A stretch of 34,072 nt of DNA, from NCBI GenBank assembly GCA_016783445.1, contig JADHWO010000022.1, positions 1 through 34,072 on the forward strand, given 5' to 3'. The notes beneath the pieces are model-generated. The model saw nothing but the letters and a program-made list of their open reading frames with translations, did not search any database and had not been told where the DNA came from. Each line of letters opens with the position of its first letter. Position 1 is the first letter of the stretch. Positions 29,084 to 32,454 of the stretch are shown piece after piece. The translations under genes were made by a program, and so were the position numbers. The DNA is from Candidatus Aminicenantota bacterium (lineage in GTDB: Bacteria; Acidobacteriota; Aminicenantia; Aminicenantales; Aminicenantaceae).

Positions 29084-29791
29084 TTAATTTATAAACGGAA
29101 TAAAATATTTTTTTATGTTTTCTTCCAGCTCTGGATTATGAAATCCTTTTTTCCAGACACCGCTTGAAAGTTCATCAGAGATTATCATCAGAGCCGCAGC
29201 CTGGATGCTGTGATATTTGGCAAGAGCAAAAACAGCTGAAGCCTCCATGTCCACACAGTTTATTCCTTTTTTTTGTTTCTCCTCCAGCCAGGATTTTGTT
29301 TCCCTATAGGGGGCATCTGTAGAGACAAGAGCCCCATTGAGATAGGGGAGATTCATGGAATGGAGAATTCTTTCTACTCGATTTTTTAGAGTAGAAGAGG
29401 GATAAAAGATTCTTTTTCGAGAGAAATAGTGCTTTGACGTTCCCTCCTCTGAGAGGGCTTTTGAAATACTTACAGCGTTACCTATTTTGTACTTTGGATT
29501 AAGAGAGCCGCAAAATCCAAGTATAATAATCTCTTGAGCTCCGGAGGCAACAAGTCCTTCTAACGAGAGAATGGCTGAAGGAGCACCCAGGGATAAATAA
29601 AGGATAATTTTGTTCTTTAAAAGATAAAAATAGCCAAAACCTGTGTTTTTTTCTTTGGAAGCTGATTTTTTTATGGTTTTTTGAAGAATCCGTGAAGGGG
29701 AGTCGCATGGGATATAAACGACATTTTTGCCCACAAAATCTTTTATGGGTTTTGGTTTTAAAATTGATTCTTCGTAAAGTTTTTTTTTCAT
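29084..29791 (-). CDS. Nucleoside phosphorylase family protein (uridine phosphorylase-like)
   Basis: A 235-residue protein of the PNP/UDP phosphorylase superfamily. It has LSLGAPSAILSLEGLVASGA, then the phosphate/ribose loop IILGFCGSLNP, then STDAPYRETKSWLEE, the ribose-binding VDMEASAVFALA, and ISDELSSGVWKKGF near the end. Such enzymes split nucleosides by phosphorolysis. The particular base cannot be told from the sequence; uridine phosphorylase or a salvage relative is likeliest. It is monocistronic as far as I can see, with a weak ribosome site. Confidence 0.85.
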   Translation of the reverse strand: MKKKLYEESILKPKPIKDFVGKNVVYIPCDSPSRILQKTIKKSASKEKNTGFGYFYLLKNKIILYLSLGAPSAILSLEGLVASGAQEIIILGFCGSLNPKYKIGNAVSISKALSEEGTSKHYFSRKRIFYPSSTLKNRVERILHSMNLPYLNGALVSTDAPYRETKSWLEEKQKKGINCVDMEASAVFALAKYHSIQAAALMIISDELSSGVWKKGFHNPELEENIKKYFIPFIN

Positions 29792-29862
29792 TTCCGATAA
29801 TTCAAGATAACAGAAAAAAAAGCATGAGACAAGCCATTAGAAGCACCCTTAATCTTGTTGGG

Positions 29863-30258
29863 TCTCTTCCATTTTGTGTGGGTAATAATCATAAAGTATT
29901 CGTGAATGGTCTTGCTCCCGTTCAGATTTTTCACGCCATCCCTTCATCAGTCTATTCAACGCATAAGCGAAGGACAGTGGGTGAAAAAAACCGTTTGAAG
30001 GCAGAGCGGGCATGGTTCCTCTCCGGGATGGAGAGGGGAGCGAAGCCTGAAACCGAGCAGCTTTTGACTCGCTGGGGCAAAAGTTGCGTGTTTTCTGAAT
30101 CCACTGGCCTGAGCTTATACATACTCGCCGCCCGACTCTGTCGGGTTTCCTCGAAGCGCAATTCAGGGAAGCTAAATCTTCAAAGGTCGCTTCGTCCATC
30201 CCCGAACACTTTCTATTAATCTATTAAGACATGTTTTGCCCACACAAAATGGAAGAGA
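29863..30258. mobile_element. MITE-like element with perfect 20-base terminal inverted repeats
   Basis: The ends TCTCTTCCATTTTGTGTGGG (29863-29882) and its exact reverse complement (30239-30258) bound 396 bases. The interior holds several smaller hairpins (for example CCCGACTCTGTCGGG) and higher GC than the flanks. Short ORFs inside have no recognisable domain and look like chance frames. No transposase is present, so it would be non-autonomous. No clear target duplication is visible at the edges. The bases 30262-30345 between it and the ParB-domain gene hold no gene; they include AAGTTTTAGAAGTCTG, a motif also seen at about 13348-13365. Confidence 0.7.
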
Positions 30259-30345
30259 ACCATCTTATTTAATCTTTTTGCCTTAAACCAGGAGACATTT
30301 GAAGTTTTAGAAGTCTGCCCCCGGTGTTTTTAGTGTTTACTCTTA

Positions 30346-31320
30346 ATGTTTAATTCAATTAGAATAAAAAGCATGAAAAAAGAAAATTTATCTCTAAAAG
30401 AAATATTTTTAAAGGATGAAAGGTACCGGATTTCATATTATTTTTCCCTGGAAGAACTGGTCCTTTCTCTAAAAAAGGTAGGCATCATTTCTCCTCCTCT
30501 TGTCACCTTCAGAGGGGAGCGTTGTATTCTTGTTTCAGGATGGAAAAGGGTGCTGGCATGCCTCAAGATTTCTCTCTCTCCTCTTCCTGTTTTTGTGATT
30601 GAAGAAGAAAATGATCTGAAAACTTTTTTAACGGCTTTTTATGAGAATTTAGCCACAAGAAAGTTCAGTCTTCTGGAGAAAGCAGAAATCCTAAACAAGC
30701 TGAAAAAATTCGGTGAGGAGGAGAAAAGGATCGTTCGTTTTTATATGCCTCTGCTCAACATCCCTTCAACCTTATCCCTGCTTGACTCTTACTTGATTTT
30801 CTCTCAGTTAGAACCAGAAGTAAAAAGAGTCATTCACGAGAAGAATATGTCTTTCCCTTCTGTTGAGCTACTTGCCGGATTTACGCCTCAAGAGAGGAAG
30901 CTTCTTCTGCCTTTACTTTTACCTCTTAGCCAGAATAAAAGAAAAAAAACTCTCGAAGACCTTCAGGAAATCTCAAAGAAAAATGATGTGTCTGCTGAAA
31001 AGATTCTCAAAACAAAGGAAATTCTTGATATTCTCGGCACTAAAAGATTGTCGCCACTTCAGAAAGCGGATAATATCCGTCTATTGTTGAAGAAAAAGCG
31101 TTATCCCGCTCTTTCCACATGGACCGATTCTTTTAATTCTTTGTTAAAAAGGCTGCAGTGGCCCCGGGAGATCGAGATTAATCCTTCTCCCTTTTTTGAG
31201 GAAGAAGATTTTTTTGTCAAATTTAACTTTAAAGATCAAGAAGAGCTTCAAGCAAGCCTTCACAAGCTTCAGGAACTAGCCTCCAGAGAGGAGCTTTCTG
31301 AAATATTTAAATTTAAATAA
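30346..31320 (+). CDS. ParB/sulfiredoxin N-terminal domain protein, partner of SPL-like gene
   Basis: A 324-residue protein. Residues about 15-95 resemble the ParB/Srx N-terminal fold: SLEELVLSLKKVGIISPPLV, then ILVSGWKRVLACLK in place of the usual GERRWRAA box, then an acidic strand. The middle (about 100-160) could be the helical DNA-binding part with FYENLATRKFSLLEKAEIL, like ParB NLxRxxLNPxEEA. The rest is Lys/Leu/Glu-rich helices without a known domain. There is no parA nearby and the CTP-binding motif is altered, so it is not the chromosomal partition protein. It lies 6 bases before an SPL-like radical SAM gene. The start could also be 30373; neither has a ribosome site. Its function is unknown. 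Confidence 0.7.
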   Translation: MFNSIRIKSMKKENLSLKEIFLKDERYRISYYFSLEELVLSLKKVGIISPPLVTFRGERCILVSGWKRVLACLKISLSPLPVFVIEEENDLKTFLTAFYENLATRKFSLLEKAEILNKLKKFGEEEKRIVRFYMPLLNIPSTLSLLDSYLIFSQLEPEVKRVIHEKNMSFPSVELLAGFTPQERKLLLPLLLPLSQNKRKKTLEDLQEISKKNDVSAEKILKTKEILDILGTKRLSPLQKADNIRLLLKKKRYPALSTWTDSFNSLLKRLQWPREIEINPSPFFEEEDFFVKFNFKDQEELQASLHKLQELASREELSEIFKFK

Positions 31321-31326
31321 CTAACG

Positions 31327-32454
31327 ATGTTTAATTCAAAATACTTTCCTCAAAGAGTCTATATAGAAAAGGGAAGCTTAAATTTTCCTTTAACGCAGAG
31401 GGTCTTGAAAAATATAGGCCAGGTTCCTACAGAGGTTTTAGAAGATACCACAAGTCTTCTTGAAAATATGAGAATTTCGAGAGATGTAATAGAACAGGGG
31501 AAAAAGGTACTTTTACTAACTTCCCAGAGAGGAGAATTTATTAAGTCCTGTCCGTGCACTCCTGGTTACATTGGCTGTAACTATTATATTATAAATTTAG
31601 ATCTTAACTGTCCTCTTGACTGCAGCTATTGTATTCTTCAGCATTATCTATCGAATCCCCTGATCACAGTTAATGTCAACCTGGAAGATTTGTGGAGCCA
31701 GCTAGATGTTTTTTTAAAGAGGAACAAAGAGAGGATTCTCCGCATCGGAACAGGTGAACTGGCAGATTCTTTAGCTTTAGACCATTTAACTGAACATTCC
31801 ATAAATCTGATATCCTATTTCAGAGATAAAAGTAATGCCATCTTTGAGTTAAAAACAAAAACTGTGAACATTAATAATGTTTTAAAGATAAAACCAGCTC
31901 GAAACATTGTTATTGCCTGGTCTCTTAATTCTTCAAAAATAGCACAAGAAGAAGAAATAGGAGCTCCTCCTGTCATCGAGAGAATAAATGCAGCCAGCAA
32001 GGTCTCGGAAAGGGGATTCCTGGTTGGTTTTCATTTTGATCCATTAATTCGTTATCCTGAGTGGGAAAAAGACTATCGGGAAGTAATAAAAAAAATGCTG
32101 GAAACTGTGGACCCAACCGGGATTGCCTGGATAAGCCTTGGGAGTTTAAGATTCCCTCCATTCCTGAAAGCAATAATTAAAAAAAGATTTCCCGGAACAA
32201 AAATCATCTATGATGAGCTTATTAAAGGGAAGGATGGAAAACTCAGATATTTTAAGCCTCTTCGCATTGAGCTTTATAAAAAGATTATCGGTTATATTAG
32301 GGATTTTGGAGGTGAACAAATTCCTCTTTATTTTTGTATGGAGAATGAAGAGGTTTGGCGTGATGTTATGGGGTGGGTTCCAAGGGGAAAAGAAAACCTG
32401 GAAGCTTATCTTTCTTTTCCCCTCGATCAATCAAAGATAAAATTGATTTATTAA
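31327..32454 (+). CDS. SPL family radical SAM protein
   Basis: A 375-residue protein. The radical SAM cluster motif is CPLDCSYC (Cys95, Cys99, Cys102), followed by ILQHYLS, as in spore photoproduct lyases. An additional Cys cluster precedes it (Cys75, Cys77, Cys84 in CPCTPGYIGC). VNLEDLWSQLDVFL, LDHLTEHSI and WSLNSSKIAQEEE, then GFLVGFHFDPLIRYPEWEKDY, complete the fold. Where Bacillus SplB has its hydrogen-donor cysteine (Cys141, before the DHLT segment), this protein has RIGTGELADS with no Cys. So it may repair or modify something other than the spore photoproduct. It is 6 bases after the ParB-domain gene, almost certainly one operon, and ends 19 bases from convergent exbD. Confidence 0.88.
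   Translation: MFNSKYFPQRVYIEKGSLNFPLTQRVLKNIGQVPTEVLEDTTSLLENMRISRDVIEQGKKVLLLTSQRGEFIKSCPCTPGYIGCNYYIINLDLNCPLDCSYCILQHYLSNPLITVNVNLEDLWSQLDVFLKRNKERILRIGTGELADSLALDHLTEHSINLISYFRDKSNAIFELKTKTVNINNVLKIKPARNIVIAWSLNSSKIAQEEEIGAPPVIERINAASKVSERGFLVGFHFDPLIRYPEWEKDYREVIKKMLETVDPTGIAWISLGSLRFPPFLKAIIKKRFPGTKIIYDELIKGKDGKLRYFKPLRIELYKKIIGYIRDFGGEQIPLYFCMENEEVWRDVMGWVPRGKENLEAYLSFPLDQSKIKLIY

Follow-up and report, generated by a model that had tools for sequence, protein, structure and literature searches.

Sequence comparisons strongly support the view that the genes for a radical SAM (rSAM) enzyme resembling spore photoproduct lyase (SPL), a ParB-like protein and a GT2 glycosyltransferase form one functional module. 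The first two are adjacent in the window, a 34,072 nt contig of a Candidatus Aminicenantota bacterium (JADHWO010000022.1), and the third is encoded elsewhere in the same genome. The preferred reading, to which a probability of roughly 0.4 is given, is a module of three chromosomally encoded proteins, of which the rSAM enzyme functionalises a base (most likely thymine in DNA), the GT2 enzyme glycosylates it and the ParB-like protein binds DNA. Substrate and product of the module, as named below, are inferred. No published description of the module was found in the open-licence literature.

The radical SAM enzyme

Both ORFs of the pair described in the earlier note were re-read in the sequence and stand 6 bases apart at the positions listed in Table 1. 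The claim that the downstream product has the SPL fold holds: the protein scores 117 bits against PF20903 (cut-off 27), and a predicted model (pLDDT 93) gives TM 0.84–0.86 against SPL crystal structures. The likeness extends over nearly the full length and is well ahead of that to other rSAM enzymes (Foldseek 1.8e-25 versus 1.7e-4), with peptide-modifying rSAM enzymes listed after SPL; the fold is accompanied by the radical SAM CxxxCxxC motif. The nearest named relatives of the locus are found in Aminicenantes MAGs, with identity of up to 71 %.

Table 1. Positions of the two adjacent genes and of the diagnostic segments of the rSAM protein within the window
Feature	Position	Strand	Basis or content
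ParB-like partner ORF	30346..31320	+	ParB_N-type domain, helical HTH-like region, C-terminal alpha/beta domain foreign to ParB
SPL-like radical SAM (rSAM) enzyme	31327..32454	+	Pfam, predicted structure, alignments
Extra Cys loop C75-P-C77-(6)-C84; Cys83 instead of Cys77 in other lineages	31549..31578	+	Alignments
Radical SAM motif C95xxxC99xYC102, then Ile103 at SPL Tyr99 position	31609..31632	+	Alignments
RIGTGELADSL segment, Glu144 (31756-31758) at SPL Cys141 position	31741..31773	+	Alignments
Cys337 in C-terminal CMExxxxW motif, fourth extra Cys, past SPL end	32335..32337	+	Alignments

Judged by active-site residues and equivalog scores, which rule out that identity, the protein is not a spore photoproduct lyase. 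It reaches 134.8 bits against the SPL equivalog TIGR04070 (cut-off 400) and 59.1 bits against TIGR03886 (cut-off 437.55), and has no Cys at the SCYTD segment. With SplB (TIGR04070; PDB 4FHC-4FHG) it shares the fold, the CxxxCxYC motif and an equivalent of Tyr97 (Tyr101), but it differs in having Glu for Cys141, Ile/Val for Tyr99, a shorter hairpin, four extra cysteines, a C-terminal extension and the GT2 and ParB-like partners, and in being carried by hosts not known as spore formers. The TIGR03886 SPL family protein of Cyanobacteria and Acidobacteria plasmids belongs to the same superfamily; of four members sampled, three retain the Cys and YCYL, whereas the rSAM protein of the window falls in a separate clade. 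The suggestion in the earlier note that the system differs from spore photoproduct repair has good support.

The reading of RIGTGELADS as the replacement of the Cys-bearing SPL segment was borne out, with Glu144 aligned to SPL Cys140 of Geobacillus (Cys141 of Bacillus). Ile103 aligns with SPL Tyr99 in profile and pairwise alignments, and both hydrogen-return residues of SPL are lost (Cys141 to Glu144, Tyr99 to Ile103); Bacillus SplB, used for comparison, reads FEASCTSD and YCYL. Of 110 family rows, 106 carry Glu at position 144 and the other 4 carry Gln or His; at position 103, 108 have Ile, Val or Phe. Where SPL has the segment RYKWGRYGIGKYIY, the rSAM protein has about 9 residues fewer and is without the tip of the SPL hairpin. 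The GxGE motif present here is common among radical SAM enzymes, in which it binds the amino group of SAM, and normal SAM cleavage would therefore be expected, without the hydrogen return and SAM recycling of SPL.

The extra cysteines reported at positions 75, 77 and 84 proved invariant across a 19-member alignment, to which Cys337 adds a fourth. In the wider SPL-like family Cys75, Cys84 and Cys337 are near-invariant, and among 93 distinct sequences Cys77 is present in 39 and Cys83 in 50, one of the two in 89 and both in none. The four sequences with neither (L063, L070, L081 and L084, all Omnitrophota) also lack Cys75, and their residue 144 is Gln or His; two of them are without Cys337. A switch between Cys77 and Cys83 within one loop, together with joint loss, is the behaviour of the ligands of one metal centre; thus the extra cysteines are inferred to ligate an auxiliary [4Fe-4S] cluster.

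The ParB-like partner

The true start of the partner ORF is probably 30373 (codon 10), since nearly all relatives start there. The predicted structure of the protein (pLDDT 94) has ParB/Noc as its top PDB matches (E 3e-7), and its fold is like that of the ParB, Noc and Spo0J CTPases across the N-terminal domain and HTH region. It differs from these in its other C-terminal domain, in scoring below the cut-offs of Pfam ParB_N (19.9 bits, cut-off 26.3) and TIGR00180 (34 bits, cut-off 58.45), and in having a degenerate GWKR at the GERR site, one of the two CTP-binding motifs. The other, ENxxR, reads ENLATR here, and Gly65, Arg68, Asn101 and Arg105 are retained. No ParA-like gene was noticed adjoining the pair in the loci read; a separate, ordinary ParB match is encoded in the genome (G000:C24:65674-66168).

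A survey of the pair across phyla, set by the earlier note as a check, found the two genes to be neighbours commonly rather than rarely and did not refute the reading given there. In all 30 relatives with flanking sequence the partner gene immediately precedes the rSAM gene (the L012 copy ends at a contig edge), and the partner was found at 58 of 80 named loci in Aminicenantes, Desulfobacterota-type, KSB1, Acidobacteriota and other MAGs. Some lineages (L071, L079, L105; Omnitrophota) lack ParB_N or the entire partner, and in L071, L079 and L105 the C-terminal domain of the partner is encoded by itself 5′ of the rSAM gene.

Genome lists for the GT2, partner and SPL genes were compiled by hand from search tables, and the genomes compared include incomplete MAGs. 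Within the phylum of the window 54 of 247 genomes have an SPL-like match and 193 have none. The partner (listed as full-length or C-terminal) occurs in 41, every one with an SPL-like match; the strong SPL form is present in 40 of these, adjacent to the partner in 35 and on a different contig in 5. From a second phylum, to which the Deltaproteobacteria MAG L104 belongs, 198 genomes were sampled and 99 of the 101 with the partner have the SPL-like gene. In one exception, G393, a contig ends with GT2 and partner as neighbours, and in the other, G480, the partner lies at a contig start; given these contig-edge positions, the rSAM gene may be missing through assembly.

The glycosyltransferase

Clustering of neighbouring genes brought out a GT2 gene immediately 5′ of the pair or, at loci lacking the partner, of the rSAM gene. 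Desulfobacterota-type and KSB1 MAGs have it directly before the ParB-like and SPL-like genes, and in L091 the GT2 stop codon and the partner start overlap as ATGA. Some lineages have all three genes in an operon; most GT2 copies are in trans.

A profile of this subfamily (A5), built from 23 members, separates cleanly from ordinary GT2 in the phylum of the window, where E jumps from 1e-100 to 1e-61. All 38 genomes of that phylum with the subfamily also have an SPL-like gene (247 searched), and the subfamily is absent from all 193 without one; 12 genomes with the strong SPL-like form are without GT2. Likewise, 104 of 109 second-phylum genomes with the subfamily have the SPL-like gene (198 searched), and all three genes occur together in 91 of the 198, about half. 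The co-occurrence has a Fisher p of about 1e-32, a value that ignores shared ancestry. Among close relatives within one family (f6) the three genes are jointly present (genus g30) or jointly absent (genus g26).

The genome of the window has a single, in trans copy of the subfamily (G000:C89:99951-100775; 52 % identity, E 1e-90), and its next-best GT2 match has E 8e-9. The product has no membrane span and is soluble. The nearest named models are makers of surface polysaccharides (TuaG/EpsD/WcaA-type), all far below cut-off, and no functional hint was found among the neighbours of in trans copies. The same GT2 is also found 5′ of SPL genes of a divergent clade, separated from them by a phosphorylase-like gene (L146, L148, L151).

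Neighbouring elements

A MITE-like dispersed repeat of 404 bp with 27 bp terminal inverted repeats occupies 29859-30262, just 5′ of the ParB-like gene, and accounts for the spurious ORFs there. It has 87 matches in its own genome, about 8 of them near full length at 89–94 % identity and many shorter. Another copy (G000:C89:105581-105986, in the L167 region) is located approximately 4.8 kb from the single GT2-subfamily gene.

Divergent from the ParB-like gene is a nucleoside-phosphorylase-family gene (29084-29791), with synteny kept in Aminicenantes. Phosphorylase/MTAN-like genes encoding an additional C-terminal part are also found directly upstream of divergent SPL genes (L146:1580-2428, L148:3643-4869(-), L145:1719-2525), preceded by GT2 in L146 and L148; this arrangement may be another version of the module. 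The 29084-29791 gene has no BLAST similarity to those genes and was rejected as a part of the module, and a relationship between the partner and the C-terminal domain of the divergent-SPL phosphorylase-like proteins was unsupported (hhalign probability 1.3). LarE-like and TolR/ExbB/TonB-like neighbours in the window were likewise set aside, being conserved merely as Aminicenantes synteny. In three Omnitrophota MAGs (L073, L094, L110) a standalone pyruvate-kinase C-terminal-like protein is encoded directly 5′ of partnerless SPL-like genes.

Proposed mechanism and alternatives

The SPL fold of the rSAM protein and the ParB/HTH fold of its partner both point to a DNA substrate. The ParB-like protein would bring the complex to DNA, where the rSAM enzyme would make a 5′-deoxyadenosyl radical and take a hydrogen from a base, most likely from the methyl group of thymine or a position next to it. 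Thymine in DNA is the target of SPL, and in SPL C141A the thymine methyl radical is trapped as TpTSO2-, with TpTOH among the compounds named in the same chromatogram legend (PMC3742179). Since the Cys/Tyr pair for hydrogen return is absent, it is proposed that the substrate radical is oxidised via the auxiliary cluster, yielding a functionalised base, for example 5-hydroxymethyluracil, to which the GT2 enzyme would then attach a sugar.

The overall logic would resemble that of kinetoplastid base J, in which thymine is oxidised and then glycosylated, run anaerobically. The base J pathway consists of the JBP1/2 thymine hydroxylase and the J glucosyltransferase (PMC4111573, and in part general knowledge). 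Common to both are the proposed order of functionalisation and glycosylation, a DNA-binding component and a co-encoded glycosyltransferase, seen here as GT2 co-occurrence. The module differs in using a radical SAM enzyme rather than an O2-dependent dioxygenase, in being bacterial and anaerobic, and in being a prediction; no TET/JBP dioxygenase was seen in the gene neighbourhoods read. The fully specified form of this proposal, a cellular, non-viral and O2-independent marking of DNA in which the rSAM enzyme with its auxiliary cluster hydroxylates or otherwise functionalises thymine, GT2 glycosylates it and the ParB-like protein picks the site, is held to be rather doubtful. Counting against a DNA-base module are the shortened hairpin, the polysaccharide-type relatives of GT2, the lack of partner or GT2 in some carriers, the degenerate GERR motif and the lack of an SPL-like gene in viral contigs.

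Modification of a tRNA or rRNA base, functionalised by the rSAM enzyme and glycosylated by GT2, is an unlikely alternative, though one with which a chromosomal, housekeeping-like distribution and the lack of viral copies are consistent. Glycosylated tRNA bases occur in nature. Additionally, in three related Deltaproteobacteria MAGs (L072, L082, L096) the SPL-like gene is overlapped or immediately followed by a ThiI-like gene; the one member scanned encodes an NFACT-R_2 RNA-binding domain. However, the partner has a ParB and HTH-like fold, and no RNA-related neighbour is constant.

The earlier note had offered 'DNA lesion repair or DNA/nucleotide modification' for the pair, of which modification is favoured because of the tight glycosyltransferase link; repair alone would leave GT2 unexplained. 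Light-independent repair, with the SPL-like enzyme reversing another base lesion located by the ParB-like protein, accords with the fold and the partner, and to our knowledge DNA repair is the sole demonstrated function of an SPL-fold enzyme. It is nevertheless quite improbable in view of the loss of Cys141 and Tyr99 and the gain of extra cysteines, and many carriers are sediment or groundwater MAGs (habitats taken partly from isolate names), for which UV is an unlikely driver.

A role in maturing a small molecule, a peptide or an envelope glycoconjugate, regulated by the ParB-like protein, would suit the similarity of GT2 to TuaG/EpsD/WcaA-type enzymes and the peptide-modifying rSAM enzymes in the Foldseek list. 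This too has a low probability: neither a precursor peptide nor a polysaccharide cluster was seen in the vicinity of the genes, GT2 is soluble, and the SPL match far exceeds those to other rSAM enzymes. A defence system was rejected on the lack of any matching PADLOC model and on conserved chromosomal synteny, and phage or mobile DNA modification on the SPL-like gene being confirmed in no viral contig scanned, where GT2 matches are generic (best 39 % over 185 aa). Most of the base hypermodification known is viral; the module appears to be chromosomal and of a housekeeping kind.

Significance

The gene associations suggest that the three-gene module is an undescribed way of chemically marking DNA. 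Its presence in roughly half of the sampled genomes of one phylum and a fifth of another predicts nucleic-acid modification in anaerobes. If the DNA-base reading is true, an unknown, probably glycosylated, nucleoside would be present in the genomic DNA of the carriers, and SPL chemistry would gain a biosynthetic role.
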